Origin: Saccoglossus kowalevskii
Lineage: Eukaryota > Hemichordata > Enteropneusta > Harrimaniidae
Direction: 5' to 3'
DNA length: 42,451 bases
Assembly (NCBI RefSeq): GCF_000003605.2
Contig: NW_003139318.1
Span: 381,048-423,498, forward strand
Part shown: positions 2,997-36,698 of the stretch, one piece after another
Position numbering within the stretch: position 1 is the first letter of the stretch
How the letters are laid out: each line of letters opens with the position of its first letter
Position numbers and translations under genes: made by a program
Notes under the pieces: generated by a model
The model's database searches: none
Told to the model about the DNA's origin: nothing
The model's input: the letters and a program-made list of their open reading frames with translations, nothing else

Positions 2997-5900
2997 ATGA
3001 CTTGTTTCACAAACCCACCACTTACGTACTTCCAACCCCCAGATGGTGGATGGGGATGGTTTGTGACTTGCAGTAGTCTGACAGTTCGTATGCTGACAAT
3101 GGGAGTCTTTGCACATGCCGGTGTACTCATCGTTGCACTGAAATCAACTATGGTCAACAATTCTGTCGTGGAGATTGTTTTAGTCACCTCTTTGTATTTC
3201 GTATTTTTGTTTTTCATGGGTACGTATAAAGTATATTTGTTATTTCTATCGTGGGTGATTTAGGGTAATTTCACACTCTGTCACTATAACCTGGAATTTA
3301 GTATCATAAAGACCAATCATATGGTATTTTGACAGGTCCAATTGGTATTTATTTAAATGACAGATATGGCACAAGGCCTACTATGCTTATAGGGGCTACT
3401 TTATCAACTATTGGGTTGTTGCTGAGTTCCTTTGCTTTCAATATGTATTATCTGTACATATCATACGGGGTCATAACAGGTAGGTAATGTCAGTGTTATT
3501 GTCATCAATTATTCAATTGTTATAATATTTTAGAGAAAACCACTCTTTCTTTACTTAAATATATTGCAGTTTTTGGCAAGTGTATGAATGTATGTAACAC
3601 TATATTGGTTATCTCTGCCATGTCGACAGTTAATGTGCATAGAAAAATGCATATGCAGAAGCGTTGTACCATATTCACTGCACGTTAACCATGATTCTAT
3701 TTGCATTTAAATCCATCATTTCTCTCAGGTAGTACGTTCGGTTCGGTCATATAAAGTTTTAGCACCTAAGATACAAGTTTTCCAGAAGTTCAATGGGTTT
3801 ACTTGTGGTTTGTAAGTGTTCCTATGCAGGTTTAACTAAATCATGGCTTTTATCTGTCTTTCCAATACATTATAGGTACTGGTCATGGATTTTTGAATGC
3901 CACGAGTTTACCGATTCTGTCAAAATACTTCGACAAATATTTTGCTACTGCAACTGGGATTGCCTGTGTTGGGACTGGCCTGGGTTTTTTTATTTTTCCA
4001 CCGATGACTCAGTTTTTTGTTAGTAAATACGGTTGGCGCGGATCGTTTATAATTTTATCTGCGATCAACGCCAATACTTTTGCATGTGCTTCTGTTATGC
4101 GTCCAATCATTGTGACTAGTCAAGAACAAGAAAAGAAAAACACAGGCAAGACAAGTGATGGTCGTTTTGAAAGAATACTTCAAGGCCTTGGGTTTCGACT
4201 GTTGTGTTCAAACCATAATTTTGCTTTGATGATATTGGGCAAGTTTGCGGGAGGCATAGGATTTTTAATTTTACTCTCACTCATCATACCTTATGCAGTT
4301 GATATTGGAACTCCTGAACTGAAAGCATCATTTCTAGTTACATCAGTAGGCATCGCCAGCCTCTCAATCAGACTTGTTCAAGGATGGATTGTGGATAAGG
4401 CATATATACGACCAATTTGCATTCTGCCGATACTTATGCTCACTATGGGAATTGCGCAACTAACAATTGCTTTAACAACGATGTTCCCTGTGTTGATTGT
4501 TGCGTGTGTCTCTATTGGAGCTTGTGATGGGATATACGTTCCTGTTCATTATGTCTGTTTGAAAGTAATGGTAGGAGCAAGAAATTATTCTCTTGCAAAT
4601 TCGATGCCATTGTTAGTAATTGGAGTTGCGGGAGTTCTAGGTTCACAGTTTGGAGGTATGATGTTTTTTTCTCTATTGAATTTAAACAAGTAAGTTCACC
4701 AATTTATTTTTTATGTTCGTTTTCCTAACTGGCATTCTCAATATAAATCTATCCTTTCTTAAAATTAAACATTTTTAATAATAACATTGAATATATTATA
4801 TTTTTAAACAACGATGAGATCTCAACCCACATAATCTATTTTTTTCATGATGCCAATATGCTTCATGACAAATACCGACTCACATTTGAATACTCTATGA
4901 CACAAGTCACGTACCTTGACCTTGATCTATATAAAAGACAACGCTTCCATAGTCTGAATATACTAGACGTGAAAACGCACACCGAGACAACGGAAACATT
5001 TGAATATTTGAAACGTAACTCTTGTCACCCTACATCAGTATTCAAAGGATTTATTAAAGGCGAAACTATTTAGTATGCTCGTACATGTAATAATGTAAAC
5101 GATTTCTTACATAAACGTAATTTATTAATTGAAAAATTGCGTGAAAGAGATCACACAGATAATGATATCAATAGATACTCTTCAATTAATGAACATGACA
5201 ATCGTATCTCACATTTACGTGAAACAATGCCTGATAATGAAAGGCAGGCAATATTCACAACTACGTTCAACACGTATATACAAGGGGACAAGTACAGAAT
5301 AAATGATCAGTTTCTCTGTAACATTTTTTTCAAATCCTCCCCTTATTGCATTTCGTAGAAATACCAAATTGAAAGATAAATTTACAAGTTCTACTCTACG
5401 TACTGACAAGCTCGTGAAAAACGACACACCAAACGACGAAGAATTACTCTCCATGTTAACTAAATTGTTTAATGAAAGTAATAAAGTAAACGTCGAACTC
5501 TCTGAAAGGTAAATAAAACGAACGCTTCGGTCAAGTACTGATCAAGTATTCAACATAAAACCCGAAACAGCACCAGTACACTAGTGAATAATCCAATTAC
5601 GGATAAATTTGAGTGCTGTATCGACATAGGCTTTCATCGTATTCAGTTTCGTATTCCAATATTGTTTCCGTGTTTACTTCTATCACACCTGAAATATTTT
5701 AACACGGAATGATACATCTGTTACGTATTTAGTCAACTAATGCAATACTGCACTTAGTCGGTGAGATGTTCGACAAGTCACCACTCCCATCGATATATAT
5801 ATGTAAAAGATGTTTGTTCTATTTCATTGTGGGCTTCGGCAATGTCAACAAACTTTCTTTTCAAATGTATTTCTCTATAATTCTTTTTTTATAATTTTGA

Positions 5901-6188
5901 TCCAAATTTCCTCCAGGCTCTAGGCTTTGATCAACCTACGTGAAAATCTGGGACATAATTATGTGCGTTTGATTGATAGTGTTTACTTTACTAATAATGT
6001 ATTAAAGAATGCCTTATCATTATTATCTCTGGACAGGTTGGATATATGATAACACGGGCAGTTTTAAGATAGTATTTTATCTCTGCGCCATATGTAATCT
6101 TGTGGCGGCTTTGCTGTACTGTATCATCGCTTTCAGGGAACACAGAAAAGAATCACAAGCAGAGGAAACAATGAAAGTCGATACCTGA
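2997..6188 (+). CDS. SLC16/monocarboxylate transporter-like, copy A
   Basis: Four exons: 2997-3219, 3336-3479, 3876-4655, 6037-6188. All introns are GT-AG in phase 1 (116, 396 and 1381 bp), giving 432 aa without internal stops. The major-facilitator SLC16 family moves monocarboxylates or related small solutes across membranes and normally has 12 TM segments. Family marks are PDGGWGW at residues 15-21 entering TM1, NDRYGTRP after TM2, and YFDKYFATATG at about 140-150. A hydrophilic loop (EQEKKNTGKTSDG, about 206-218) separates the two halves. A membrane Arg at 288 (LSIRLVQGW) matches the TM8 Arg of MCT1, but the Asp found four residues earlier in MCT1 is Ser here. The ATG was chosen because all four copies share MTCFTNP. 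The tail is REHRKESQAEETMKVDT. Intron 3 holds a Penelope-like relic. Substrate cannot be inferred. Confidence 0.92.
4858..5512 (+). pseudogene. Penelope-like retroelement RT relic in intron 3 of A
   Basis: The frame from 4858 reads FEYSMTQVTYLDLDLYK, then THTETTETFEYLKRNSCHP and FKGFIKGE. It stops at a TAG (5071-5073) and resumes in the same frame with YARTCNNVNDF and LIEKLRERDHTDNDINRY. After a frameshift near 5330 it gives NPPLIAFRRNTKLKD, the typical end of the RT region in Penelope-like elements. Homology of intron 3 with copy C stops at about 4850, marking the left insertion edge. The GIY-YIG endonuclease that usually follows is absent. Same strand as the host gene, spliced out with the intron. 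Confidence 0.72.
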
Positions 6189-7395
6189 CTCTGCAACCGG
6201 TTTGGCGGAATATCATTAGTTTGCGGCTCTACGTATGGGTCATAATTTTGCTCCAAAGGGATTCATCTTCCCAGATTAGCCAAATCACAATTTGTGATTG
6301 TCCTGGGTTTTAAAGTTGTATATGTATATGTGTATAATATGAACAGATTAACAGTGATTGCAGAGATTGACATTAAATCAAATGTAATTTTGCTCAACAT
6401 CACATTGACTTCGATATGTAACAATAACCAGTGCGTTCCCATTTAGCTGGTAATTGAATACATAATCATTTTACATGACGTTTCGTGTGGTACTTGACCA
6501 GTAGCATAATTATATAAACTCAATATGAACATGCTTACAAATATTCCAAGAAAAATTTGGATTACAACACGATCTAAATCCCACTTTCCTTTGCATTTAA
6601 TGCTGCAACAGCAAATTTTCCTTTGATGTTTGTGATCTGTCATGCAATTAGTCAGTGCATGAACAGCTCTTCAATTACTGTGATTTATTTCCTGTTAATG
6701 TATGCCCTGTAGACAATAGTATCACTCCGGACTGTAGACAAGTTATGATGGGCACTCAGAAACTTCCAAATGTATTTTTTTTAACACAACTGATTTAGAT
6801 GTTTTGATTACAGTTACAAATTATCTATTCACATTATTGAATACAGGATATGGTAGTTATTTTTATTATTTTGGAATATTTTAATTTAAAAAAATAGAAC
6901 ATTACATCACCGCAACATTTGAAATAATTGCAGGTGCAACTAAAATCCTACGAATGATTATTTTGTATTTCTTGATCACAAATTGAACTTTCCGACAAAA
7001 AATTAAGTCTTTTTCTCATATTGGCGAACCAGGTATTCGCTTTTTTTTCTAATTAAACTATTTCTATATTTATTTACAATTGTTATTTACAATTTAAGAC
7101 TGTTTTATTTCAGTGTACATTTATTAATTGACTGAACAGTTTGTGATTATTTACTGTTTTGTTGATTGATGTTCGTTTGCCCCAAAAGAGCTTGATCCTC
7201 CTATAGGTAACAAATCCTATTATATTTTGACAGAAAGTTCTGTAGGTTTACCGTATTCTGTATCATTGTTTAAACTTTGGTGTGCCTGATTAGCTAACTG
7301 CATTATATGGTCAACATTCTACATTCCGGGCAAATACACACGCCCGCTTGTATCATATTTTTGTTATGTATATTATTCTGTTGAATAAAAACAAT
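6189..7395 (+). other. 3' UTR / 3' flank of copy A
   Basis: No gene. The first part matches the 3' flank of copy B (to about 14440) and more loosely that of C and D. The last part (about 7250-7390) matches the D 3' flank at 31700-31830 on the other strand, including an AATAAA. This suggests the ancestral duplicated unit ended near here and that the 3' UTR may be about 1.2 kb. Confidence 0.5.
7384..7389 (+). terminator. Candidate poly(A) signal of copy A
   Basis: AATAAA in the context TTCTGTTGAATAAAAACAA, retained almost unchanged downstream of copy D (31721-31716 on the - strand). Confidence 0.4.
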
Positions 7396-7769
7396 ATATG
7401 CCCCTGTATCCTTTCTTCAGAACTCTTACAGATACACCCCGCTTAGAAGGCAATGTAAAAACATGAATAGCACGGTTAATTTATACATAGGAAGATATGT
7501 GCTAAATATGGGACTGGCAGACACCCTAAGTTTAATACTGTAAATGAAGGTCAAGTGTGTTTGAATCAGAGTATATTAGCTATATGAGATTCTAGAATAT
7601 AAGATTTTTTGAATAGTGATCACCTATTGGTCTGCATTCAGAGTATAATGTCATGTCATGTCATTATTTAAAGATTCAGTATCATGTGTGTTCATCAAAT
7701 TCATGATTTTAAATAGAGACTTATAATGTTTATAATGTAAACAGACGGTGAACATTTCCAGTGTTGATT

Positions 7770-7772
7770 TAA

Positions 7773-7843
<71 letters not shown>

Positions 7844-7846
7844 AAA

Positions 7847-7880
<34 letters not shown>

Positions 7881-7890
7881 AAATAAATAA
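7770..7890. repeat. (AAAT)n microsatellite
   Basis: About 30 near-perfect AAAT units at the left edge of the duplicated upstream block of copy B. The same repeat sits at the same edge in the C and D blocks. Confidence 0.95.
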
Positions 7891-8750
7891 CAATTATGAA
7901 AAGTATCTCCCATTTAACGCGTGATGGCGCATTTTAATAAAGTGGGTGATCGCAATCCGAAAAAGCCCACAATTTTTTAATTCAAATAATGCATATATGC
8001 TGTTCCATACCCACCTAACAGTAGTAACTGTCATTTACTATCTTGGAATACCATAAACATATACATTACATATACATTTTTATATTGTATTAAACATTTA
8101 ATGATAAAACTCAAGTTGGCAATTAATTATTGCACATTTGTGTAGTTTATTAAAAACTCAATAGTTAGATACATTTTATATACTTAATATAAAAATGAGG
8201 AAACAAAATACGAACTTGCTTGCAATAATACGTCACAAATCAAATGGCCACTCTTTTCTGAACTCGTTTTACAGTCATTTACAATGGATTGTATACAGCT
8301 TCCGTATATCGAATCCTAACCTGGGAAGTGATTGTACACCAGTTGTCTTAGTTGAACTAGGGGTAATTTTGTAGTTCAATCGATTCTTTATAATTATTTA
8401 GTATCTGAAAATAGCAGGAATTCAAAGAGTGATCAAAGTAACATCAACTGAGGGCGCCCGACAATAAGGTCAAACAAGAACAGAGTTCAGTAACCTAGAC
8501 GGTCTTTCACATTGGCGATGGCTACGGAGTGTGTACAGCTCCAGGCAATTACTGAACCAACCGTCTAATTACGATATGTACACGTAGTATAAAGTGAGTA
8601 AGTACCTGGCGTTAGCATTTGTGAAACCATACCATAGAGTGGAGTTTCATGCAAACGAATGAGTAAAGGCTCCACCATGAGTTGACAAGCCTGTTAACTC
8701 GCGGTCGGCATTGTTCGAGTATTTTATAAACAATGGTGGACAAAACTATG

Positions 8751-8797
<47 letters not shown>

Positions 8798-9065
8798 CAT
8801 AAGGGAATAATAATGACTTCTCTCAAATTACAATTAGGGCTGTATTTTCCCTTTCAACTTGGCTGTTATATATTTGCCCAGGTTTTGTATGTGAATACAG
8901 GCTCAAAATACAGATAATCTCCAGTCAGGCTTTCCGGGTTCAATCAAAGGTCGGCTATGCTTAGCTACATTTAAATCAGTCAAACCAAATTTAAAATGAC
9001 AACAAGCACATACTAGTTACTTGTCTCAGTGACCTAGATTCTTTCATCGTATATAACTCTATTAA
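7891..9065 (-). repeat. Duplicated upstream block U, copy near gene B
   Basis: About 1.2 kb homologous, inverted, to 24181-26144 and 38250-39531. Recognisable shared stretches are the GGGCGCCC-containing segment near 8453, the CCAGGTACTTAC segment near 8610, and the segment around ACTAGT...CTCAGTGACCTAGATTCT (about 9014-9043). On the - strand it has a TATA-like TATAAAAT (8728-8721), a 37-codon open frame (8678-8565) and, inside that, CCAG/GTACTTAC, which looks like a splice donor. The orientation is away from gene B. An (AT)n run interrupts it at 8752-8792. Confidence 0.75.
8752..8792. repeat. (AT)n microsatellite
   Basis: Uninterrupted alternating TA run of about 40 bp inside block U upstream of gene B; absent from the C and D versions of the block. 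Confidence 0.95.
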
Positions 9066-9880
9066 ATTTCTACAAAACAGGTTACAAAATAAAAATTTGC
9101 TGGAAAGATATGTATGTGAAATACTTCTGACCAAAAAAGCATGTAAACACATAGATTTGTCCGGGCTTCTGTCAATATTGGGGAATTCAGCAATCGTATA
9201 TTAGCTTTATATGTTGGTAGGCTAGTCCAGTATGTAATAGAGTACATTTTGATAACTAAAGCTTTGTGGGGAGAATGGACGGTTCGCTGTCAGTCCATTC
9301 GACCTGTGCTCCCCTCGTCATCAATCGAGCTGACGTTATTTTCGACTCATACCTCGTTGCTCTGATGTTCCTTCCTACTCAAAATAGTTCTTACCTTACA
9401 TAAACACCAGCAAGCAAATTGCAAAGTTTCTGTTTTTAGATATTTATTCACCTTGTCATGCATCGATCGTGGCTCTACCTTCAGTATTCCCAGAAATGCA
9501 GCCAGTTTTGTGTTTAATCAGGAGTTGCCCAAATCTACAGGTCACTAGTACCTGTCAAAAACACGACGTAATTTCAATACATTCTCACATATCACGTTTC
9601 AGATAAACTCATATAGCAACCATATGATTTGATTGGTGGCATGAGAACTTCAATGGTCCAGGCACTCGATTCTAAGTTTTGACTTATGAAGTGGGACATC
9701 TTAGTCAGCCAGTGTAATTGTTAACTTCGAAGTTAACTCAAACTCTAATCCACACGTATCGTGGATTTAGCTGTAAATGTAACAGACACAGCTGTGTTTA
9801 AAACCAAAAATACTCTTATGTTTTATTGAAAATCGAAAAAGTATCAACTTGTCGGGGATGTGCATCAGAACCACGTAGTT
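9066..9880. other. Intergenic spacer, no gene seen
   Basis: Lies between block U and the conserved upstream flank of copy B. It has no clear match to the spacers found at the same place upstream of C or D, and no protein or RNA gene was recognised. Confidence 0.4.
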
Positions 9881-10512: not shown

Positions 10513-13500
10513 ATGACTTGTTTCACGAACCCACCACAGACGTACGCCCAACCCCCAGATGGTGGATGGGGGTGGATTGTGGTTTGTAGTAGTCTGTTAA
10601 TTCGTATGCTGACATTGGGAGTCTTTGCACATACCGGTGTACTCATCGTTGCACTGAAATCAACTATGGTTAACAATTCTGTCGGGGAGATTGTTTTAGT
10701 CACCTCTTTGTATTTCGGATTTATGTTTTTCACAGGTATGTATACATTATATATGTTATTTCTATTGGAGTGATTTAGGGTAATTTTAAACACTTACACC
10801 ATTTACTTTTACAAATTTTTACTTTTAGTTGAATAAACCATATACTACTTCGACAGGTCCAATTGGTATTTATTTAAATGACAGATATGGCACAAGGCCT
10901 ACTATGCTTATTGGCGCTACTTTATCAACTATTGGGTTGTTGCTGAGTTCCTTTGCTTTCAATATGTATTATCTGTACATATCATATGGTGCCATAACAG
11001 GTAGAGAATGTCAGTGTTATTGTCATCAATTATTCAATTGTTATAATATTTACTGAAATATGTTGCAGTTTACAGTAAGTGTATTAGTTATCAATGTCAT
11101 TGCATTTCAATCCGTGATTACTGTCAATTGATGAAATTCGGTACTTGCGTTTCTGACATGCAATGGTTTAGCACCTGAGATATTAATTCACGGTTTGTAA
11201 CTGTTCTTATACAGATACATCATAACGCATATCTGTCTATCTACACATTCAGGTATTGGTAATGGTTTTTTGCTAGCCACAAGTTTGCCGATTCTGTCGA
11301 AATACTTTGACAAACATTTTGCAACTGCAACTGGGATTGCCTGTATTGGAAGTGGGCTTGCCTTTTTTATTTTTCCTCCGATGACTCAGTTTTTTGTTAG
11401 TAAATACGGTTGGCGCGGATCGTTTATAATTTTATCTGCAATCAACGCCAATACTTTTGCATGTGCTGCTGTTATGCGTCCAATCATTGTTACAAGTCAA
11501 GAACAAGAAAAGAAAAACACGGACAAGACATGTGATGGCCGTTTTAAAAGAATTGTTCAATGCCTTGGATTTCGACTGTTGTGTACGAACCTAAATTTTG
11601 CCTTGATAATATTGGGCATGTTTGCAGCAAACATAAGTTTTTTAATTTTACTCTCACTCACCGTTCCTTATGCAGTTGATAATGGAACCCAAGAACTGAA
11701 AGCAGCATTTCTAGTAACAGCAGTAGGTATTGCCAGCCTCTCAACCAGACTTGTTCAAGGATGGATTGTGGATAAGGCCTATATACGACCAATCTGCATT
11801 CTGCCGATCCTTATGCTTACTACGGGAATTGCGCAACTAACAATTGCATCAACAACCATGTTGCCTGTGTTGATTGTTGCGTGTGTCTTTATTGGAGCTT
11901 GTGATGGTATATACGTTCCTGTACATTATGTTTGTATGAAAATAATGGCAGGAGTAACAAATTATTCACATGCAAATTCAATGACGTTATTAGTAATCGG
12001 ACTTGCGGGAGTTCTAGGTTCACAGTTTGGGGGTAAGATATGTTTTGTTTTCACTCTATCGAAATTAAACACGCAATACACTTTCTCTATTTCATTAATT
12101 TTATTCTGTAATAATTTTTACCTTGCCCGTATCATCAAAGATGAAGGGCAAATGTAAGGGGAAAATATAAGTGAGCGTCGATGTTGTTGTCGTCGGTGTC
12201 GTCGTTGTTAATAATTGTTAATGTGTACGATAACTTGAGTAATTATACTTTGAACTGTATCAACTTAGTCACCTTATTCATCGGTATAAAATATTCCCTT
12301 AGTATGAACGACAGGTGTCCTGTGTGAAAATATCATGCAACGTTTGAGAAAAGGTTGGTCAAAATCTGATAAAGTTATTTGGCCGTTTCTACTTGACTGA
12401 TTACTGGTGATAAACAATAAAAGGTTCCTGGTTCAAGAGGGAATATGCATTGCTGTATGTGTTCAATGAAGTAAATCGTTTATCCTGTAATCAATATCAT
12501 TGGCAATGTATCTCCTGAATCCCATGGGAATACTACACTGGGTTTCATTCCACTCTTGGAGAGAATTGTTACACAGTGCAATACACATTTGCAAACATAC
12601 CAATAAAATACAATGTTATCTTAACAGAAATCAAGATGTCAGGTATAAGCACTCTGAATAATCTCCCGAGTACCAAACTTTTGATCGAGATCTAATCGAG
12701 TACAAATTATGTCTGTTTAGTCCAAAGTTATAAACCACTATATAACAGGCAAAATGTTGAATCCACATTTTGGAAGAAAATATGCACTCAAAAAAATGGA
12801 AACAGTATTTTACATACAGTTCACGTGACAATGAAATGGTTGTTGTTATAACAACAAATTTCTTTGTCAAAGTAAAGAACTTAATGCTAGTTATTGGAAC
12901 ACAATTCTAGAGCTTTTACAATATTAATTTAAAACACACTTCAAAACGTCAATCAAACGTCTCAATTATACATAGTTTGCATTCGATGTTGGCAATTTTA
13001 TTCATGATATTGTAAAGAAATAATTAAAATATTGCTGCCATATTTTGTTATTCACTTGATGCGGTTCTCAAATTATTCCCCAAAATTTAAACATCTATTA
13101 TTTTTCCCCATGCATCTAGTATGTCAAATATGTGAGTGGTGTTTTTTGGTTTTCTGGTTAATAAACAAATTTGATATATATTACTTGTACAGTATTTTGC
13201 TTGATTTCATTGGATTTTTACTTTTAATTCCTGCCCTTGCAATATATCTTCAGCATCAATAGTTCCTATAGTCAGTTGAATTTATGTACAACAAGCTTAG
13301 CCAATAGTTACTTTGCAATCCAACCGCTCGTTCTATTCATTGTTGAGTGAGGAGCCATTTACTAGTGGAAAGGATCTTTTGAATAAATCAGAATTCTGAT
13401 ATTTATGTAATTATTTTTTGTAATTGTGAACCAAATTTCACCCAGGCCTTATGCGTTAATCAACCTACGTTAAAACCTAGGAAATAAGTTTGTGGGTTTG

Positions 13501-13717
13501 ATTGATCATGTTTAGTTTACTAATAATGTATTAAAGAAAGCCGTATTGTTTTTCTCTCTCAACAGGTTGGATATATGATAACACGGGCAGTTTTAGGATA
13601 GCATTTTATCTCTGCGCCATATGCAATCTTGTGGCGGCTTTGCTGTACTGTATTGCCGCTTTCAGGGAACACAGAAAGGAATCACAAGCAGATGAAACAA
13701 TGAAAGTCGATACCTGA
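10513..13717 (+). CDS. SLC16/monocarboxylate transporter-like, copy B
   Basis: Four exons: 10513-10735, 10857-11000, 11253-12032, 13566-13717. Introns are GT-AG, phase 1 (121, 252 and 1533 bp), giving 432 aa and no stops. It has PDGGWGW at 15-21 and the YFDKHFATATG motif after exon 2. TM1 differs most among the copies (SSLLIRMLTLGVFAHTG), but the intramembrane Arg31 is kept. Exon 3 resembles copy D (FAANISF, YAVDNG, LSTRLVQGW, MKIM). Exon 4, ending REHRKESQADETMKVDT, resembles copy A. An in-frame ATG 30 bp upstream would add residues, but it crosses the conserved ACAG splice-site-like sequence, so the shared MTCFTNP start is preferred. It lies head-to-tail with A and converges on C; likely an integral plasma- or organelle-membrane carrier of unknown substrate. 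Confidence 0.92.
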
Positions 13718-17112: not shown

Positions 17113-17232
17113 ATTACGAGGATACTCCAAAGTATGCACAAAGACAGTGCACCGTCGCATCGACCTCCGCTGTGCATCGGTCGATCCTCCTGATGTACTG
17201 TCTTTGTGCATACTTTGAGGTATCCTCGTAAT
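17113..17232. repeat. Long stem-loop (36-bp arms)
   Basis: Arms 17113-17148 and 17197-17232 are complementary over 36 bp except for the central CTCC/GAGG offset. The 48-bp loop contains its own 7-bp stem (ATCGACC at 17160, GGTCGAT at 17179). It could be a foldback element or the footprint of one. No target-site duplication was identified. Confidence 0.7.
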
Positions 17233-20083: not shown

Positions 20084-23000
20084 TCAGTTTTCATTGTTTC
20101 CTATCGTGTGATTTGTTCGGCGCTCCCTGAAAGCGACGATACAGTACACAAAAGCAGCCACAAGATTACATACGGCGCATAGATAAAATACTATCCTAAA
20201 ACTGCCAGTGCTATCATATATCCAACCTGTCGGCATAAAAAAAACAATATGGCATTGTCAGATATATCATTAGGAAAACAAACATTATCAATCGAATATA
20301 TAAAGATCTTTTTCACTAGTAAATGGCACGCTCACTCAACAAAAGTAGCGTGCAACTATTGGCTATGGTGGTTGTACATACCACAGGGAATTGGACAAAC
20401 TTATGTATTTTAATAAATTATTAAATAATAAAATGTTATATAACTTTTCTTTTACCCCCCCCCCCTTCCTGGTATCGATTTCAAGTAATCACTGATCTTT
20501 GTTTATGCCACTCTTTCCTTTATCACAACCTTTGTTACGCGCTAATGTTATATGCAAATATTAACGTGCAATGTAGACACATCCTATTATAGTAAAATAT
20601 CCCAAGGGTTAAAACGCGCCAGGACTGTGGCATAAAAAGTTATATAACATTTTATTATTTAATAATTTATTAAAATACATAAGTTTGTACATACATTCAA
20701 ATTACTATAACAAAATTGATGCTGAAGAAAATATTGGGCGGTCAGGTGCGCAGGAATTAATTTTTGCAAGTCTGCTGTTTCGTTGTCATCAGGACGCAGC
20801 CTGATGTTTGTTGCTTTCTTGATTGGTCAATTATGGATACAATTTGTGTGGTGTGTGGAAGATGTGTTGATTGGTTGTTGGTCTATGAGTTCAGAAACAT
20901 GTAGCTTAAAATGATACGTTTTTAGATCATGAGAACTATAGCCATTGAATAGTATGTCAGAGGAAAAAAGCTATGTTGAACAAAATGTATTAATTAATCC
21001 TGGCAATAGTTCAATTTCTTTTGAAAGCAAGTTGTGCCATCAAATCTATTCGTTGTTATGCTTGTAAGGTAAATTCTTGAAATGTATTAAAGCTTAAATA
21101 TAAGAATATAGATTGTAAACTATGAACAAAAGCGTCCAACAATATATATTGTATTTGGTGCAAAGTATTATTGACACTCACTATCTTAGTTTGGGGTATT
21201 CTTTTTTAAAGTAATAGCCAGGGCTCTTGATATGGTGTATTTTAATGTATTTTGCGTTCATTTGTTAATTTACAATTTTTAGAAGCAGAATTTATGCAAG
21301 TGTATTGTAACAACGGCTTAAGTGACTGTCAATTCTGCCATATCTCCTCTCCACTATTGCTACTGATGCAACTATGCTCATTAGTGATTTTTATGAGATA
21401 ATTACATCTGTAATTGAGTGTTTCAGTATTTTTGTGTACAGTGTGTGTATGCCATTGTGGAGAAAAAATCCATCAAGCGAAATATACTATACAAACTATA
21501 AAGCAAATTAGTCATAAATCTGGTGACTTTGCCCTTTGGCAGACACCATTATTTCATTTATTACAGTAACTATAAATTGGATGATAACTAGACATATTTT
21601 CACGACAGGAATGCACGACCCATACCGTTATGTCACATACTGGCTACTCATGAAAAAATAGATTAAAACAGTTTGTGGGTTGAGACCTCATTGTTGTTGA
21701 GTAATATTGCATATTCGATGTTATTAAAATGTTTAATTTCAGGAAAGAATAGATTCATATTGAGATTCACATTGGCAGTTAGGAATAGGAACAGCAAATT
21801 CGTGTACTTGTGTGTTTAAATTCGATCGTATCTTACCTCCAAACTGTGAGCCTAGAACTCCCGCAACTCCGGTTACTAATAACGTTGTTGAATTTGCAAG
21901 TGAATAATTTGTTACTCCTACCATTACTTTCAAACAGACATAATGTACAGGAAAGTATATGCCATCACAAGCTCCAATAAAGACACACGCAACAATCAAC
22001 ACAGGGAACATGGTTGTTGAAGCAATCGTTAGTTGCGCAATTCCCGTAATAAGCATAATGATCGGCAGAATGCAGATTGGTCGTATATAACCCCTATCAA
22101 CAACCCATCCTTGAACAAGTCTGATTGAGAGGCTGGCAATGCCTACTGCTGTAACTAGAAATGATGCTTTCAGTTCTGGAATTCCAATATCAACTGCATA
22201 GGGCATGATGAGTGAGAGTAAAATTATAAAACTTATGCCTCCCGCAAAGATGCCCAGTATCATCAAAGCAAAATTATGGTTTGTACACAACAGTTGAAAG
22301 CCAAGGCCATGAAGTATTTTTTTAAAACGACCATAATGTATTCTGTCCGTGTTTTTCTTTTCTTGTTCTTGACTAGTCACAATGATTGGACGCATAACAG
22401 CAGCACATGCAAAAGTATTTGCGTTGATTGCGGATAAAATTATAAACGATCCCCGCCAACCGTATTTACTAACAAAAAACTGAGTCATCGGTGGAAAAAT
22501 AAAAAAACCCAGGCCAGTCCCAACACAGGCAATCCCAGTTGCAGAAGCAAAATGTTTGTCAAAGTATTTTGACAGAATTGGTAAACTCGTGGCTAGCAAA
22601 AAACCATGACCAGTACCTGTAAGTATTAGAAAAACAAATAAAAGTTATGATTTAAATCAAACCTCCATAAGAACATTTACAAACAGCAAGTAATCCCATT
22701 GGAAAATTGGTATCCTAGGTGCTAAAAATTAACATGACTGAAACGCACGTTCTAATTGAGAGAAATCATGGATTAAAATACAATTATTGTGCAGTGAATG
22801 TGGTACAACAGTTTTGCCTACGCGTCTTTCTACACACATTAATTGTAGACTTGACAGTGTTACATACATGCATTCACTGCAATATATTTAAGTAACGAAA
22901 GAGCGATTTTCTCTAAAATATTATAACAACTGAAATAATCGATGATAATAATAATACAGACAATGCCTACCTGTTATGGCACCATATGATATGTACAGAT

Positions 23001-23448
23001 AATACATATTGAAAGCAAAGGAACTCAGGAACAACCCAATAGTTGATAATGTAGCGCCTATAAGCATAGTAGGCCTTGTACCATATCTGTCATTTAAGTA
23101 AATACCAATTGGACCTGTCAAAATATACCATATGATTGATCTTTATTATACTAAATTGCATGTTATAGTGTGTAAAATTAACCCTAAATCATTCACGAGA
23201 ATTGAAAAATATACTTTATACGTACCTATGAAAAACATAAATCCGAAATACAAAGAGGTGACTAAAACAATCTCACCGACAGAATTGTTGACCATAGTTG
23301 ATTGCATTGCAACGATGAGTACACCGGCATGTGCATAGACTCCCATTGTCAGCATACGAACTGTCAGACTACTACAAATCACAACCCACCCCCATCCACC
23401 ATCTGGGGGTTTGGCGTACGTCTGTACTGGGTTCGTGAAACAAGTCAT
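20084..23448 (-). CDS. SLC16/monocarboxylate transporter-like, copy C
   Basis: Four exons on the - strand: 23448-23226, 23114-22971, 22616-21837, 20226-20084. Introns are GT-AG, phase 1 (111, 354 and 1610 bp), giving 429 aa with no internal stop. The protein starts MTCFTNPVQTYAKPPDGGWGW and keeps Arg31 in TM1 (LTVRMLTMGVYAHAG). Exon 3 shares FAGGIS, YAVDIG, SIRLVQGW and CLKVM with copy A, but exon 4 ends RERRTNHTIGNNEN like copy D. One change unique to C is WVVDRGYIRP instead of WIVDKAYIRP after TM8. Intron 3 carries an inverted-repeat element that D lacks. Convergent with B, head-to-tail with D. Function as a solute carrier is inferred from the family. Confidence 0.92.
20374..20694. mobile_element. 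Inverted-repeat (MITE-like) element with target-site duplication
   Basis: An insertion (20382-20686) in intron 3 of copy C, flanked by GTACATAC direct repeats at 20374-20381 and 20687-20694. Its arms 20397-20448 and 20635-20686 are perfectly complementary over 52 bp; the left end has 13 extra bases (starting CACAGGG). The inside has an 11-C run (20455-20465) and no coding capacity. Copy D has the uninterrupted site GTTGTACATACATTCAAATT. An 8-bp duplication fits hAT-type transposases, which would have to act in trans. Confidence 0.85.
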
Positions 23449-24180: not shown

Positions 24181-26144
24181 AACATAAGCAAGTGATCCTA
24201 CTTATATTTAGTGGTTTGCCCTATGGGGAACATTTTTGATTGGTCACTTTTTAATATCTGCAGCCAAATACAAAATTGAATACAATGCAGTTATATATTC
24301 GTGATAATAACAGAATATATGTCACTGAGACCAGCTACTAGTGTGTGCTATGCTGCCAGGGTCCGACTGTATACCGACGATGTATATACAATTGACAGAC
24401 GAAGCAAAATACCTTCTCGAACCCAAAACGCCGCGAAAGCACGGCTACTAGTTTACTTTCCCTTTGACTATTTTATAGACTATTATAAAACACGACAAGC
24501 CTGACTGAACTGTATCCACAGACAAAACTGGGGTTAAGATATAACAGCCAAGTTGAAAGGGAAAAGACAGCCTTAATTGTAATTTTAATGGGGACATTAT
24601 ATATGTCTCACACAGCATAGTTTTGGCCACCTTAGTTTATATAAAATACTCGAACACTGCCGACTTGTCAGGCTTGTCAACTCATGGCGAAGCCTCTACT
24701 CACACGTTTGCATGGATCTTCACTCAATGGTGTGGTTTCACAAATGCTAACGCCAGGTACTTACTTGCCTCAGACTACGTGTACATATCGTGATTAGACG
24801 GTACGGTTGTTACAAGAATCGCCCGGAACTGTACACACTCCGTAGACATCACCAATGTGAAAGGTCATCTTGGTTACTGAACTCTTGTTTTTGTTTGACC
24901 TTATTGTGGGGCGCCCTCAGCCGTCCAATTATAACAGATGTTACTTTTCTCACTCTTTGATGCTGGAATTCCTGCTATTTGCAGATACTAATTACTTATA
25001 TGGAATCAATTGAAACACAAAATAATCCCAAGTCCAACTAATACAACTGGAGTACAATGGGTTTGACATACGGAATCCATGCAAAATATGTGGTAAATGA
25101 CGGCGAAACGAGTTCAGAAAAGAACGCACATGGGATTCGTGACTTTTTATTGCTAGTGTGTTATCTTTTTGTTACCACATTTTATATTAATTAATTATAT
25201 AAAATCTGTCTTACTGCTGAGTTTTTAATAGATTACACTATAGTACAATATTTAATGTTGAGTTTTATCACTGGATGTTAAATGGAAGAGAACAAATGTC
25301 TGAGCCGATGTATATGTTTATGGTATTATCAGGGGGAAATTCTCTTCTCTCGGGGTCTCCACACTTGTCAGGGGGGGGGGGGAACTCGTCTCGTCTCTGT
25401 ATCACGTCCCCTTGAGGTACGGGATCGGGAAAGTCACTTTAACTTTACAGTCAAATAAGACACACACAACGGAATACGTTTCAACTCTCGTCTTAGTCGA
25501 TCTTTTGGAGCACTCTATAAGACACAGCGCCCTGGGGAAAAGTCCCCAAGACTATATCGCAAGGCTGACCCAAGACTCTCTTAGACTGCGTCAAGGCTCG
25601 CCCCAAGTCTCTCCAGGACTGCCCTGTCGTGGAGTATTCGCCAAGACCAACTCAAACTCTCTTTATTCATTTTCAAAACTCTAACCAATTACAAAGCAGT
25701 AAAAAGACTCTAAGGCGTAAACTTCAATCATAAAGCCAATCAAACTAAGTACTGAATACTGATTAATCGTTCACTACATTAATAACTACGGATGTCAGAA
25801 TAGCGACGGTATCTTGTAATTAGTTCCAAACCACTGAGCCAAGTTCCGTCCAAAACTTCAAATAGGCCCACACGATGACAGACATAACACAGCAATTCGC
25901 TAATAATCAGCTAATTAAGTCGGTTAACAGATACGCAAAAACAAATTCATGACAGTATTCCACGAAAGTGAATAACAGTTGAGTGTGTAGGAAACAGCAT
26001 ATATACTTTATTTGTAATTAAAAAGTGCGAATTGCGATCACCCATTTTGTTCATATTCGAAATAAGTTTATTTAAGTTCGCCATCATGCGTTTACTGGGA
26101 GAAACTGTTCATAAATAACATTTTCCTTGGGAGATACTTTTCAT
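24181..26144 (+). repeat. Duplicated upstream block U, copy near gene C
   Basis: Homologous to 38250-39531 (same strand) and 7891-9065 (inverted). It begins TAAGCAAGTGATCCTACTTA and ends at the (TTTA)n array. It contains a TATA-like TATATAAAA (24638-24646), a 37-codon open frame from 24684 to 24797, and CCAG/GTACTTAC within that frame. It is longer than the other copies because of an insertion at 25328-25954. Transcription from the TATA-like box would run away from gene C. Confidence 0.75.
25323..25959. mobile_element. 627-bp insertion in block U with 5-bp direct repeats
   Basis: GTATT at 25323-25327 and 25955-25959 flanks 627 bp (25328-25954) that the B and D versions of the block lack; D reads TTTATGGTATTCCACGAAAG uninterrupted. 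The insert starts ATCAGGGGG, has a poly-G run (about 25373-25382) and a GC-richer first half, and ends in CATGACA. It lacks TG...CA ends, recognisable inverted repeats or a clear protein, so its class is unknown. The 90-codon frame at 25412-25684 has no recognised motif. Confidence 0.7.
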
Positions 26145-26434
<290 letters not shown>

Positions 26435-29653: not shown

Positions 29654-29699
29654 AAAATTCGACACGATATTAAGTCCACAGCACATGTTTTCAAAATGG

Positions 29700-30085
29700 N
29701 NNNNNNNNNNNNNNNNNNNNNNNNNNNNNNNNNNNNNNNNNNNNNNNNNNNNNNNNNNNNNNNNNNNNNNNNNNNNNNNNNNNNNNNNNNNNNNNNNNNN
29801 NNNNNNNNNNNNNNNNNNNNNNNNNNNNNNNNNNNNNNNNNNNNNNNNNNNNNNNNNNNNNNNNNNNNNNNNNNNNNNNNNNNNNNNNNNNNNNNNNNNN
29901 NNNNNNNNNNNNNNNNNNNNNNNNNNNNNNNNNNNNNNNNNNNNNNNNNNNNNNNNNNNNNNNNNNNNNNNNNNNNNNNNNNNNNNNNNNNNNNNNNNNN
30001 NNNNNNNNNNNNNNNNNNNNNNNNNNNNNNNNNNNNNNNNNNNNNNNNNNNNNNNNNNNNNNNNNNNNNNNNNNNNNNNNNNNNN
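29700..30085. other. Assembly gap (N)
   Basis: 386 undetermined bases. Frames drawn across it are artefacts. Whatever follows the Crypton relic is hidden here. Confidence 1.
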
Positions 30086-30307
30086 AAACTTGCTGTTCTG
30101 TGCGTTTCTGTGTACTAAGCGCGAGTGTGTGATAAGAGATTAAATACTGGTTCCAGGGCCCATTTCATCTAATCACCGTGTCGACCAGCCGATGCTCATT
30201 ACACGTCGTTCGAAAACGACTCTTTCTTCTTTGTAAAAAGGCCGAGAGTGTCGAAAATGCTACAGAAATGAAGTTTATATAATATAATAGCTACCGCTCG
30301 TGCATAT

Positions 30308-30366
30308 ATGTCGTGAATTGTGCAATATCTCGTGGTATACCCGCCTCCGGCGGTGGTTTATTGCTT
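30308..30366. repeat. Dispersed repeat, copy 2
   Basis: Partner of 24032-24090. It contains ATCTCGTGGTATACCCGCC followed by TCCGGCGGTGGTTT, which forms a small CCGCC/GGCGG hairpin. It lies about 150 bp before a minisatellite built on the related word CTCGTGATAGTATC. Confidence 0.55.
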
Positions 30367-30514
30367 AAATAATGTATTGTTGTTGTGAATATGGCAGGCT
30401 TAATTTGTAGTCAAGTTTTCACATATTCACAATTCGATACTTTGATCACCAATACATATCCAGGTTACAGCATGAAAACACAGAATACAAATCTAATCGT
30501 TTTTCGTTATCTCG

Positions 30515-30835
30515 TGAGAGCACCTCGTGATAGTATCACGTTATCTGATAATTTTGTGATAGTATCTGATGATCTCGTGATAGTAACTGGCGATTTCGTG
30601 ATACTATCTGGTGATTCCCGTGATAGTATCATTGTATCTACTGATCTAATGATAGTATTCGGTGAGGTCGTCAGCTCTTGCTTGTTTTTTATGATCTGGC
30701 CATAGTATATGTCGATTATGTCATGGTATAATGTGATAGGGTCTGGTTATCTCGTGATAGTGTATGATGATTTCGTGATAATATCTTGTGATAGTATCTC
30801 GTAATATCATATCGTGAAAGTATATTGTAATAATT
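30515..30835. repeat. Degenerate minisatellite, CTCGTGATAGTATCTGGTGAT-like
   Basis: About 12-15 imperfect copies of a roughly 20-bp unit with the words TCGTGATAGTATCT and GGTGATTTCGTGATA, decaying to the right. It makes an open frame with repeated (D/N)xVIVS-like words (30385-30705) that is judged non-coding. Confidence 0.75.
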
Positions 30836-30859
30836 CGATACTAATATTTGTCATATTAA

Positions 30860-31695
30860 AAACAATTCTACAGCAATGTATTTATGACATCAATTTTATA
30901 TAAAAAACACTGCCATCCTCTTGATAATTTGCTGAGCGAAAGGTTCCGCCAAATATTATATTAAAAACAAATAAATGTATCCACTTACAATAAGTGTCCT
31001 AACTCCAAATTATCAATTTGTATTGATCTAATTATTGATTTTTTGATATTCATTGCAGATATTTTTTGTGAAACCATGACAATACTCTTTGCCAATGAAT
31101 TATGTATATCACTTATTGCAAATCATATTTCTGGTATTATTTTTATTTGACAATCAAATTGTTACGTGCTGTTTATTTAAATCTACTGCTAATTCTTTCC
31201 AGATTGCATAGTGGTTTGTAAATGATTGCCAAATGCACTTTGGTTCAAAACACCTTCCTTGCCCACCAGTATTTGATTCCTCCTTGGACGATGACGAAAT
31301 AGAACACACAGGCTTTTAGAAGAATGATTATCGTACACTAATTTTGTCATAATTGGTAGGTGTTGACTCAACTAAATGCCAAGGTGATTTTTTGCATGAA
31401 TTTGTGAACAAAATAACTGTCTGATATTCAACAGTTTGGATATAAAAAGGACATTCAAATTGTAATTTTCTTTTCAAGTTCTAAATGAACCTTGGGACAT
31501 TATCAAAATATTTTGCGCTTTGACCCATTAAACTTGAAAAGTACTGAAAACAAAATGACCACCATTTATTGAATACTATTAAGTTAAGGAATTATTCTAG
31601 TTTAGTTTATTCTTGTATAATAAGTGAACGTTGACCTCTCATGACCCTGAGAATAGACAAAAATCGAATTGACAACCATGTAACACATAATAAGA
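30860..31695. other. Intergenic, no gene seen
   Basis: AT-rich, no recognised feature. A short frame on the + strand around 31205-31315 (NDCQMHFGSKHLPCPPVFD) looks protein-like but matches nothing I recognise. Confidence 0.35.
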
Positions 31696-32833
31696 ATATA
31701 GGTACATAACTTGTTTTTATTCAACAGAATACTATATGATACAAACATATGATACAAGCGAGCGTATGTATTTGCCCGGAATGTAGAATGCTGAACATAT
31801 AGGGCAGAAAGCAAATCAGGCACACCAAAGTTTAAAGAATGAGATGGGATATGGTTTGAGAGGGTGTGAAGCGGAGATAATGATGTCCACGATGTACAAA
31901 TAGTCATCTTGTAAGGGTGTGATATGAATCTAGGTAACATAATCCACATTGCATTGTATAATCATATAGAAATTAAGGTCTCACACACCAGTCCTATGGG
32001 ACTGGCATTTTAATGTCAAAGAGAAATTGTATTAAAGTACATGCGATCTAATGCATTAATACCATAGTACTTCCAATGTAGATCCATCCATGGTTCAGTC
32101 GTCGGAGTGAATCAATAAAATTCATTAAAATTATAAAGAGTAATTCGAAATTGTATATTCATAGGCAGATTTTTACCATTTTAAACCTTTTGAAAATCCA
32201 TTGAACTGAAACAAATTTCCCATCCCATGATCTCCCTGTACCATAATAAATTGTGCATGTTCGATCCCAGCGTTCAATAATCTGTATAGAAAACTTCACA
32301 ATGTATTCGAAACATCTTGGAAGTTTCTCAGGGCCCATCACAGCTTTCCCACAGTCCTTTGTATGTAACCCTGTAGTAACATTTTTTTCCCACAGGGCCT
32401 AAACAGGAAGGAGATCACAGTATTTGAGAGCTGTTCATAAATTGACGAATCATAGAAAGCTCATCAACACCAATGAAATATTTGATGTTGTACATAACAA
32501 AGGAGCTTAGCACTAAACACTGCACTGGAAGAGTTGTAAGTTGTAGTTAATATACCTATGCTACAGAACTGGTCAAGTACCACACAAAACGTCATGGAAA
32601 ATGTTTATGTATTTGATTACATACTAAGTGGAAACACACTGGTTATTGTTACTTATCCAAGTAATTGTGATATCGAGCGTAAATATGTTCAAATTAAGAA
32701 CAAAATTAAAACATGATGACAGTTACAAATTGTAAATCACAAATCTGGGAATATGAATTTCTCTCGAACAACAGGATGACCAATATATAGAAGCCTAAAC
32801 TAAAGATGTTCAACCAAACTGTTGAAGCAGGCA
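31696..32833 (-). other. 3' UTR / 3' flank of copy D
   Basis: Matches the C 3' flank (19215-20083) from 31905, and beyond that the A flank at 7250-7390. On the - strand AATAAA at 31721-31716, in the same context as in A, suggests a 3' UTR of about 1.1 kb. Confidence 0.5.
31716..31721 (-). terminator. Candidate poly(A) signal of copy D
   Basis: AATAAA in TTCTGTTGAATAAAAACAA on the - strand, conserved with 7384-7389 after copy A. Preservation in two distant copies favours real use. Confidence 0.4.
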
Positions 32834-35800
32834 TCAGTTTGCATTGTTTCCTAGCGTGTGATTTGTTCGGCGCTCCCGGAAAGCGACGATACAGTACAAC
32901 AAAGCAGCCACAAGATTACATACAGCGCATAGATAAAATACTATCCTAAAACTGCCAGTGCTATCATATATCCAACCTGTCGGGATAAAAAACAATATGG
33001 CATTTTCAGATATATTATTAGTAAACCAAACATTATTAATCGAATATATATATATATATATAAATATCAAAAGATCTTTTTCACTAGTAAATGACACACT
33101 CACTCAACAATAAGTGTGGTTGATTACCAAAGTAGCGTGCAACTAAGCTTGGCTAAGCTTGTTGTACATACATTCAAATTACTATAAAAAAATTGATGCT
33201 GAAGAATATATTGGGCAGTCAGGCGTGTAGGAATTAATGTTTGCAAGCCTGCTGTTCTGTTGTCTTCAGGATGCAGCCTGATGTATGTTGCTTTCTTGGT
33301 TGGTCAATTATGGATACAATTTGTATGGCGAGTGGAAGATGTGTTGATTGGTTGTTGGTCTAATTGTTTAGAAACCTGTAGCTTAAAATGGTATGGACAT
33401 AATGTTATGTATTTATTACATTTTTAGATCATAAGAACTATAGCCATTGAATATTATGTCAGAATTTTTTTTTGAAAAAAATGTATTAATTAACCCTGGC
33501 AATATTTCAATTTGTATTGAAAGCAAATTGTGCCACCAAATATATTCGTTGTTATGCTTGTAAAGTAAATTCTTAAAATGTATTGAAGCTTAAATATAAG
33601 GATATGAATTGTAAAATACGAAGAATAGCGTCCAACAATGTAATTTGTATTTGGTAACAGTCAAGTATTATTGACACTCACGATCTTAGTTTGGGGTAGT
33701 CATTTTAAAGTAATAGCAATGGCTTTTGATATGGTGTATGTTAATGTATTTTGCGTTCATTTTACAAGAAGTAGATTTTTAACAACATACAAGTGTATTG
33801 TAACAACGGCTTAAGTGACTGTAAATTCTACCATATCCTCTCTCCACTCCACTATTGCTACTGGTCTACCCCTTACTTGATGCAACTATGCTCATTGGCA
33901 GTATGCCTGTGTATAATGTGTGTATGCCCTTGTAAAGAAAAAATCCAGTGACACCAAGCGAAATATACTATACAAATTATAAAGCAAATTAGTTACAAAT
34001 CTGCTGACCTTGCCCTTTATTATACAATATTTCATTTATCAAGGGTGTTTTGATATGAATATGCATTGTTCTAATTAATTTTGAATACCAACATGTTTTA
34101 GAAATGAAACAGCAGTGGACAAGCAGTCTACAAATAGTCTTACAAAAACATTGTTGCCTAATTTGAACTGATAAAATAGTAAATATAGTTGTCCAGTCTG
34201 AACCCTGTCTACACTATTAAATACTGTCCCACTCATCATCAAAATTATACCATTTACCATCTGGAGCTTTGATCCATGCATAGTAATGAGATGATGTTGA
34301 TTGATAAACTATGACTGCATGCAGGTTAAATACTCTGATACCACAGAGATCACCACTCAATTCGACATACTAGATGGGAAAAATAACTGATGTTTAATTT
34401 GTTGTTCATTGTTGTTTGGTCAAAATTAATTCACGCCGTGGTTCACAAAACACACATTACCAGTATTACAGAACTTTCAAGAATAAGAATAAATTTTGGA
34501 ATAAATTTATGCAACTTAGTAAGTTAATTATCTGTAAACATACGAGCCACTGTCACGTGGCCACGTGTTAATTATAATAAGCTGCTTTTCAGTCGGGAGA
34601 GATAAATGTTCATAAGGTTCATCTTAAACTGGGCCTGTTCAATGACATACAATGCATTTAAATTATTTTAGGTAATATGCCAGAAAGCCGGTAAAACAGA
34701 CATGTTACATAGCCCCAAAAAGGGATGTTGCTTCTGCAGCAAAATGCAATACATGTCAGCACTTTTCAAGCAATTTGCCCTAGAATGTCAGACAACAGAT
34801 AACAATCAATGTCAAGAATTCTCGCCAGGCAAACAAATTTATTGAAATAATAACTATAAATTGGATAGATAACTAGACATATTTTCTCGAAAGGGATGCA
34901 CGACACATAGCGTTATATCACAAACTGGCTACTCAGGAAAAAATAAATTAAAATAATATGTGGGTTGAGATTCGTATTACCAGTTAGAAAAACGAACATC
35001 AAAGAGAATTCGTGTACTTGTGTGTTTAAATTCGATAGGTTGAAAGAAACATATCTTACCTCCAAACTGTGAACCTAGAACTCCCGCAATTCCAATTACT
35101 AATAATGTCATTGAATTAGCAAGAGAATAATTTGTTACTCCTACCATTATTTTCATGCAAACATAATGTAGAGGAAAGTATATCCCATCACAAGCTCCAA
35201 TAAATACACACGCAACAATCAACACAGGGAACATGGTTGTTGAAGCAATTGTTAGTTGCGCAATTCCCGTAGTAAGCATAAGGATCGGCAGAATGCAGAT
35301 TGGTCGTATATAGGCCTTATCCACAATCCATCCTTGAACAAGTCTGGTTGAAAGGCTGGCAATGCCTACTGCTGTAACTGGAAATGATGCTTTCAGTTCT
35401 GGGATTCCATTATCAACTGCATAAGGTATGGCGAGTGAGAGTAAAGTTAAAAAACTTATGTTTGCTGCAAACTTTGCCAATATCATCAAGGCAAAATTAT
35501 GGTTCGTATACAACAGTCGAAACCCCAGGCGTTGAACAATTCTTTTAAAACGGCCATCACTTGTCTCGTTCGTGTTTTTCTTTACTTGTTCTTGACTAGT
35601 CACAATGATTGGACGCATAACAGCAGCACATGCCAAAGTATTGGCGTTGATGGCAGATAAAATTATGAACGATCCCCGCCAACCGTATTTACTAACAAAA
35701 AACTGAGTCATCGGAGGAAAAATAAAAAAACTCGGGCCACTCCCAAGACAGGCAATCCCAGTTGCAGTTGCAAAATGTTTGTCAAAGTATTTTGACAGAA

Positions 35801-36698
35801 TAGGTAAACACGCGGCTATCAAAATACCATGACCAGTACCTGAATGTATGTATTAGAAAGACAGATAACAGCTATGATTTAGTTAAAACTTCATAAGGAC
35901 GCTTAAAAACCGCGAGTAAACCCATTGAACTTCTGTACTTAGGTGCTAAAACTATACATGGCAGAAACGCAAGTACCAATTGAGAGAAAATTATGGATTG
36001 AAATACAATTGCAGTGCAGTGAATGTGGTACAACAGTTTTGCCTAAGCGTCTTTCTACACACATTAATTGGGGACATGGCAGTGTAGACCGATATAGTGT
36101 TGCATACATGCATAGACGTATCATAAACTGCAATATATTTAAGTAAAGAAAGAGCGATTTTCTCTAAAATATTATAACAATTGAATAATTTATGACAATA
36201 ATACAGACATTACCTACCTGTTATCACCCCGTATGATATGTACAGATAATACATATTGAAAGCAAAGGAACTCAGAAACAACCCAATAGTTGATAATGTA
36301 GCGCCTATAAGCATAGCTGGCCTTGTACCATATCTGTCATTTAAGTAAATACCAAGTGGACCTGTCAAAATAGTATATGCATGATCTTTATGTATGATAC
36401 TAAATCCCATGTTATAGTGTAATAGTGTGAAATTAATCCGAATCAATAGAAATAACAAATATACTTTATACGTACCTATGAAAAACATAAATCCGAAATA
36501 CAAAGAGGTGACTAAAACGATCTCACCGACAGTATTATTGACCATAGTTGATTTCAGTGCAACGATGAGTACACCGGCATGTGCAAATACTCCCATTGTC
36601 AGCATACGAACTGTCAGACTACTACAAATCACAAACCACCCCCATCCACCATCTGGGGGTTTGGCGTACGTCAGTGGTGGGTTTGTGAAACAAGTCAT
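32834..36698 (-). CDS. SLC16/monocarboxylate transporter-like, copy D
   Basis: Four exons on the - strand: 36698-36476, 36361-36218, 35839-35060, 32976-32834. Introns are GT-AG, phase 1 (114, 378 and 2083 bp), giving 429 aa and no stops. It has PDGGWGW at 15-21, Arg31 in TM1, and the YFDKHFATATG motif followed by a copy-specific CLGSGPSFF. Exon 3 shares FAANISF, YAVDNG, STRLVQGW and MKIM with B, while the tail RERRTNHTLGNNAN is like C. Copy-specific changes include TGHGILIAACLP at the start of exon 3 and RPAMLIG in exon 2. Intron 3 is the longest because of about 800 extra bases (about 34030-34845) that contain a USP-like fragment. Substrate unknown; membrane carrier by family. Confidence 0.92.
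33043..33063. repeat. Short (AT)n microsatellite
   Basis: About 20 bp of alternating TA in intron 3 of copy D at a place where copy C has only ATATATAAA. Confidence 0.85.
34217..34382 (-). pseudogene. Ubiquitin-specific protease C-terminal fragment in intron 3 of D
   Basis: On the - strand one open frame of about 50 codons reads VFNLHAVIVYQSTSS, then HYYAWIKAPDGKWYNFDDE before a TAA at 34219-34217. This is the His-box end of the USP (C19) deubiquitinase fold: the catalytic His is in HYYAW (34288-34286) and the W-Y-x-F-D-D motif follows. The usual Gly before His is Ser. Only the last part of the domain is visible, with no Cys box, within about 800 bp that copy C lacks. It could be a processed-pseudogene piece, an exon of a decayed gene, or cargo of a mobile element. 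Confidence 0.6.

Follow-up and report, generated by a model that had tools for sequence, protein, structure and literature searches.

We analysed a stretch of 42,451 nucleotides (nt) from the hemichordate Saccoglossus kowalevskii (the window; NCBI RefSeq assembly GCF_000003605.2, contig NW_003139318.1, positions 381,048 to 423,498), which holds four related genes, A to D, resembling monocarboxylate transporters (MCT, SLC16-like). The four genes are mosaics. In a block that covers most of exon 3, A pairs with C and B with D (AC/BD), whereas on the 3' side A pairs with B and C with D (AB/CD), and both pairings are firm. We infer that this mosaic is very probably the work of interlocus gene conversion, which occurred repeatedly and in part between copies of opposite orientation. 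Genes A and B lie on the forward strand, followed by C and D on the reverse strand; all four are intact, with four matching coding exons each, in agreement with the gene models of an initial annotation made from the DNA alone (Table 1). A run of N (assembly gap) occupies 29700-30085, between C and D.

Conflicting trees along the gene quartet

In each segment alignment we counted the columns that split the four copies two against two (Table 1), and we compared AB/CD, AC/BD and the third topology, AD/BC, by resampling of estimated log-likelihoods (RELL) and Shimodaira-Hasegawa (SH) tests on our own maximum likelihood (ML) fits. In exon 3, the RELL support for AC/BD is 0.995, the SH p-values are 0.0032 for AB/CD and 0.0102 for AD/BC, and AC/BD is ahead by 29-32 log-likelihood units (lnL). 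AB/CD receives RELL supports of 0.994 at the end of intron 3 and of 1.0 in both exon 4 and the 3' flank, and it is ahead by 44 lnL in exon 4. The site classes of exon 3 and exon 4 differ with a Fisher p of 1.8e-7, and a permutation of site labels along the coding sequence (CDS) for two segments gives p = 0.0007. Neither test clearly favours a topology in the 110 bp upstream, in the first two exons and introns, or at the start of intron 3. A star tree with chance homoplasy was rejected, as 19 of the 27 informative exon 3 sites fall in one class (binomial p 1.1e-4).

The same pairings can be read in the proteins. The exon 3 motifs are FAGG/YAVDIG/SIRL/CLKVM in A and C and FAAN/YAVDNG/STRL/CMKIM in B and D, while the tails of A and B end in EETMKVDT and DETMKVDT, and those of C and D contain RRTNHT. 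The pairing of exon 3 and the opposite pairing of exon 4 proposed in the initial annotation thus agree with motifs, tails and supported segment trees. The separate segment trees that it had suggested as a check have differing, supported topologies, so the genes do not follow one tree throughout.

Limits and grain of the mosaic

Taken alone, exon 3 nt 47-703 give AC/BD a RELL support of 0.999. Minority sites in this exon favour AD/BC at CDS 388, 734 and 1083-1113, and AB/CD at 531, 803 and 1030. The last AC/BD site is CDS 1057 (A 4565), 90 nt short of the end of the exon. In the remainder (exon 3 nt 704-780), AD/BC is weakly favoured, with a RELL support of 0.905 and an SH p of 0.11 against the other trees. 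The initial annotation had the first ~200 bp of intron 3 of A follow C; when A, C and D are aligned together there, it is instead C and D that stand closest, agreeing against A at 25 sites, compared with 6 sites for A with C and 5 for A with D. The match of A to C reaches 4860 and that to D only 4732, because D lacks a stretch present in A and C. B is not placeable in this region, its match to the other copies stopping within ~50 bp of the start of the intron. Since the AC/BD sites end at CDS 1057 and A does not follow C at the start of intron 3, the AC/BD block ends inside exon 3 (A 4565-4591) and does not extend into intron 3, where the switch had originally been placed. The last ~150 bp of intron 3 of A do follow B, as first described, and ~80 bp of that match have no counterpart in C and D.

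The initial annotation described a mosaic of two blocks. The conflict between exon 3 and the 3' side stands, but two blocks are too coarse a description. We fitted to the CDS a phylogenetic hidden Markov model (phylo-HMM) with a rate for each codon position, terminal branches shared by the trees and a single internal branch for each of them. It gains 52.8 lnL over the best single tree, 25.9 over the two-block model and 10.4 over an exon-by-exon model. In parametric bootstraps with the latter two models as nulls (109 simulations per null), the maximum gain is -1.5 for two-block and -3.6 for exon-by-exon. At the 5' end, the phylo-HMM segments are AD/BC at CDS 1-32, AB/CD at 33-331, AD/BC at 332-418 and AC/BD at 419-506. 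In the middle they are AB/CD at 507-621 (weak), AD/BC at 622-636 (no real support, posterior 0.38) and AC/BD at 637-906, and toward the 3' end AB/CD at 907-1038 (weak), AC/BD at 1039-1068, AD/BC at 1069-1135 and AB/CD at 1136-1257. An HMM with free branch lengths over introns and exons took local rate for topology and was dropped for the rate-controlled CDS version. Permutation inside the two large blocks of exons 1-3 gives p-values of 0.34, 0.015, 0.002 and 0.016 for three to six segments, for boundaries picked post hoc. The AD/BC patches are likely in sum and weak one by one: three of them, each taken alone, have SH p-values of 0.07, 0.11 and 0.14, none reaching 0.05. For the patch across intron 2, taken with somewhat different limits (exon 2 nt 99-144 and exon 3 nt 1-46), AD/BC has a RELL support of 0.956 and an SH p of 0.07, which is suggestive only.

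All four copies have in common a core that begins ~100 bp ahead of the start codon and reaches the first part of intron 3; within it, intron 2 of B has a gap. Upstream of this core, A has no match to the other copies that we could see in the window. The third introns of A and B include long stretches matching nothing else in the window. The stretch specific to A has an open frame of 66 codons (4867-5064) which, we presume, resembles a fragment of a Penelope-type or similar retroelement; in a search of that stretch the best Pfam match is not significant (E 0.18) and NCBIfam gives none. Far upstream, ~0.9 kb are common to B, C and D with 81-90% identity (8040-8960, 24450-25330, 38440-39345), and long tetranucleotide arrays lie near this shared stretch (7771-7889, 26144-26431, 39534-39625). 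Identity there is 90.2% for C-D, 81.2% for B-C and 81.1% for B-D, and in a three-way comparison C=D at 105 sites against 37 and 38 for the other pairs. In the 3' flank C-D identity is 91.0%. C and D therefore appear to be sisters on both sides of the block, strongly so on the 3' side, the 5' comparison being limited to B, C and D. Elsewhere in the window, two self-reverse-complement stretches (17113-17232 and 41956-42182; 121 and 238 aligned positions, 78-79% identity) are possible foldback elements.

Table 1. Genes, blocks, patches and aligned segments of the quartet, in window coordinates. Sites are two-against-two columns in the order AB/CD, AC/BD, AD/BC.
Feature	Coordinates	Strand	Details	Sites
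Gene A	2997..6188	+	coding exons 2997-3219, 3336-3479, 3876-4655, 6037-6188; 432 aa, intact	
Gene B	10513..13717	+	coding exons 10513-10735, 10857-11000, 11253-12032, 13566-13717; 432 aa, intact	
Gene C	20084..23448	-	coding exons 23448-23226, 23114-22971, 22616-21837, 20226-20084; 429 aa, intact	
Gene D	32834..36698	-	coding exons 36698-36476, 36361-36218, 35839-35060, 32976-32834; 429 aa, intact	
AC/BD block in A	3946..4565	+	CDS 438-1057; holds all 19 exon 3 AC/BD sites	
AC/BD block in B	11323..11942	+	CDS 438-1057	
AC/BD block in C	21927..22546	-	CDS 438-1057	
AC/BD block in D	35150..35769	-	CDS 438-1057	
Possible AD/BC patch in A	3444..3926	+	last part of exon 2 and first part of exon 3, CDS 332-418 by phylo-HMM; intron 2 between	
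Three AD/BC sites at exon 3 end in A	4591..4621	+	CDS 1083, 1101, 1113; weak	
Approximate homologous core in A	2884..4690	+	common to four copies; flanked on either side, in one or more copies, by sequence that is unrelated or specific to that copy	
Start of intron 3 in A	4656..4860	+	alignable with C, and with D via a gap; A-C 76.7%, A-D 71.0%, C-D 86.8%	
End of intron 3 in A	5885..6036	+	matches B 13414-13565	
110 bp upstream				0/0/3
Exon 1				2/0/2
Intron 1				2/2/1
Exon 2				3/0/3
Intron 2				4/3/1
Exon 3			780 columns	3/19/5
Start of intron 3				1/0/0
End of intron 3			last ~71 bp	9/0/0
Exon 4				14/0/0
3' flank			330 bp	25/0/1

Probable gene conversion and its alternatives

We propose that one SLC16-like ancestor was duplicated into four genes; exon 4, intron 3 and the flanks would record the order of duplication as (A,B) and (C,D). 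Interlocus (non-allelic) conversion, in which a broken copy is repaired from another one, would then have pasted tracts of tens to hundreds of bases repeatedly from copy to copy, in the region that runs from just upstream of the start codon to where exon 3 ends. The strongest footprint would be the block at CDS ~438-1057, where B and D came to share one version and A and C another. The sequence from intron 3 onward, including exon 4 and the 3' side, probably escaped because the long copy-specific stretches of intron 3 block pairing and repair synthesis. A crossover between copies in opposite orientation inverts or breaks the chromosome. As A and B are opposite to C and D, crossovers between the two pairs would rearrange the chromosome, and non-crossover conversion is the natural route.

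Gene conversion, one of two explanations offered in the initial annotation, agrees with the supported conflict of adjacent segments, with the synonymous sites and with the distances. The 19 AC/BD sites of exon 3 include 9 synonymous and 10 nonsynonymous ones (the synonymous/nonsynonymous counts are 1/2 for AB/CD and 3/2 for AD/BC). At fourfold degenerate sites of the block, A-B and C-D are inflated relative to noncoding sequence of the same pair (23/88 differ against 100/659, p 0.014, and 18/83 against 300/2867, p 0.003), and A-C is deflated (14/90 against 200/706, p 0.011). The remaining pairs differ in the block at 14/90 (B-D), 16/84 (A-D) and 23/85 (B-C) fourfold sites. Exon 3 has an excess of C-D synonymous divergence (p 0.007). 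C-D noncoding divergence is 112/704 (15.9%) in the near upstream and introns 1-2 against 300/2867 (10.5%) elsewhere (p 1e-4), in a comparison without a middle upstream stretch of 637 aligned sites, 34.7% different, that is apparently not homologous throughout. A is 15-16% different from C and from D in introns 1-2, a figure that rises to 28-29% for the start of intron 3 combined with the 3' flank. In a GENECONV-like permutation test, B-D has a global p of 0.013 for CDS 860-957 (0.046 with mismatches allowed); this test and the segmentation are our own implementations, used in place of the published GENECONV and GARD.

We rooted the trees of the AC/BD block with a fifth paralogue (exons 2-4; 69-71% identical in exon 3). 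Among the 15 possible rooted trees, ((A,C),(B,D)) scores best. The tree (A,((B,D),C)), expected after a transfer from D to B, is 1.0 lnL below it, and ((A,(B,D)),C), expected after a transfer from B to D, is 2.0 lnL below it. The three best trees all contain a B+D clade, and trees without that clade lose at least 9.9 lnL. The outgroup sides with A and C at 9 of the 19 AC/BD sites, with B and D at 5, and with neither pair at the other 5. A single transfer between B and D is thus enough for the tree, and the low A-C distance suggests more than one event.

Several results weigh against repeated conversion, or against its finer detail. The Bayesian information criterion supports only two segments in the CDS, and the Akaike criterion six. 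When A-C and B-D are pooled (28/180 fourfold differences) against the other four pairs (80/340), p is just 0.040, for pairs that are not independent. The distances fit no single direction of transfer, as A-C and B-D are both at 14/90 and A-D is hardly higher. C-D synonymous divergence in exons 1-2 (9/86) is not above that of the flanks (p 1.0), and the other five pairs are not globally significant in the GENECONV-like test, A-C having p 0.15 (0.35 with mismatches). CDS 631-810 (A 4139-4318) is hypervariable in all pairs, with 9-20 differences per 90 nt, so that a local rate effect accounts for some of the C-D excess in this stretch, and rates at noncoding and fourfold sites may differ. By alignment to MCT2, this hypervariable stretch corresponds to the central loop and the part that follows it.

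A reciprocal exchange, by a double crossover or by an inverting crossover, is an alternative that we consider improbable; B would have traded segments with C, or A with D. Such a symmetric swap fits both the low A-C and the low B-D distance as well as the best rooted tree, and we reason that a crossover in the tail-to-tail pair B and C would swap their 3' ends and leave the gene order unchanged. A single crossover predicts AC/BD upstream as well, yet C and D are nearest far upstream and exons 1-2 have 0/10 informative sites of class AC/BD; a single crossover between inverted copies is rejected on these grounds. Two close crossovers would be required, which is in effect a reciprocal conversion, and the trees expected under one-way B-D conversion are a mere 1.0-2.0 lnL worse. 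The unequal exchange between neighbours that the initial annotation gave as its second option is likewise unlikely as worded, given the opposite orientations and the sister relation of C and D on either side of the block.

It is very unlikely that B came to look like D, and A like C, in exon 3 through convergent or parallel selection on residues of the transporter. Several of the distinguishing residues do lie in the stretch aligned to the surroundings of MCT2 D293-R297, and one of them, codon 287 (I/T), adjoins the conserved arginine. This explanation is largely refuted by the synonymous sites, which are 9 of the 19: given ~187 synonymous and 590 nonsynonymous positions, the ratio is ~0.35, like the pairwise nonsynonymous to synonymous rate ratio (dN/dS) of 0.28-0.45 over exon 3, so that selection for like residues is not needed. 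Judged from the assembled sequence, a swap of exon 3 among copies by the assembler is hardly credible even for a draft of 4830 contigs with an N gap at 29700-30085: exon 3 is 8-9% different between A and C and between B and D, so that none of the copies is a near-duplicate, the four frames are intact, and the gap lies outside the genes.

Beyond repeated conversion itself, the process could have acted as a shuffler of modules, with the middle block reassorted, the C-terminal exon insulated by the intron 3 insertions, and new combinations selected. The module, that middle block, would comprise most of the exon 3 membrane helices as predicted from the MCT2 alignment, with the stretch around the conserved arginine among them, and the combinations would be of substrate site and tail. 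We consider this reading rather doubtful.

The transporter family and known systems

The quartet is assigned by sequence to the monocarboxylate-transporter (SLC16-like) family of the major facilitator superfamily (MFS). The product of gene A, the one searched, matches Pfam MFS_1 (E 7.8e-43), and its best solved relatives are MCTs (PDB MCT2, E 1.4e-43). The SLC16 signature near the N-terminus is DGGWGW, and PPDGGWGW is present in A, B, C and D. We take MCT2 K38, D293 and R297 to be the key residues of the proton-coupled MCT1-4, namely Lys38 and the Asp/Arg of transmembrane helix 8. In the MCT2 alignment, A-D alike have His40 for the Lys and Ser284 for the Asp and keep the Arg as Arg288, and we would not place them within the proton-coupled subgroup. 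Divergence in exon 3 is ~8-11% among all copies. A DNA search of the genome with exon 3 of A (572 Mb; counts are lower bounds) finds at least five matches, namely A to D themselves and one paralogue elsewhere (72% identity). The 8.0 kb left of the window and the 7.5 kb on its other side hold no additional copy. The fifth, more distant paralogue is on another contig (L008:4385-6650), where exons 2-4 match and exon 3 has a protein identity of ~60%.

A single tree is wrong for such paralogues, and selection tests on whole genes could mislead. The quartet is also a small natural example of exchange, including between inverted copies, that seems to halt close to the onset of intron heterology. A literature search combining gene conversion, monocarboxylate transporter and tandem found nothing with these terms in title or abstract. 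According to PMC3924818, mean tracts of interlocus gene conversion are mostly 50 to several hundred bp, and the block sizes fit these estimates. The bivalve MCT genes (PMC11939762) are, like ours, a lineage-specific, partly tandem expansion of SLC16-type genes; the term 'gene conversion' does not appear in the main text of that paper. The tandem sodium-channel paralogues of newts (PMC8476164) are similar in that nonallelic conversion shares short coding tracts, functional residues included; they differ in being tied to toxin resistance and known in several species, where we have one species and half of the copies inverted. The LWS opsin clusters of livebearing fish (PMC3087554) resemble the quartet as a small cluster with a tail-to-tail pair and conversion of part of a gene, and in a related fish the 3' portion of one LWS copy resembles another subtype. 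Two of those copies are 99% identical in CDS, unlike the more diverged transporters here. Set beside these systems, the quartet is a new instance of a known and well documented process, a clean but ordinary example.

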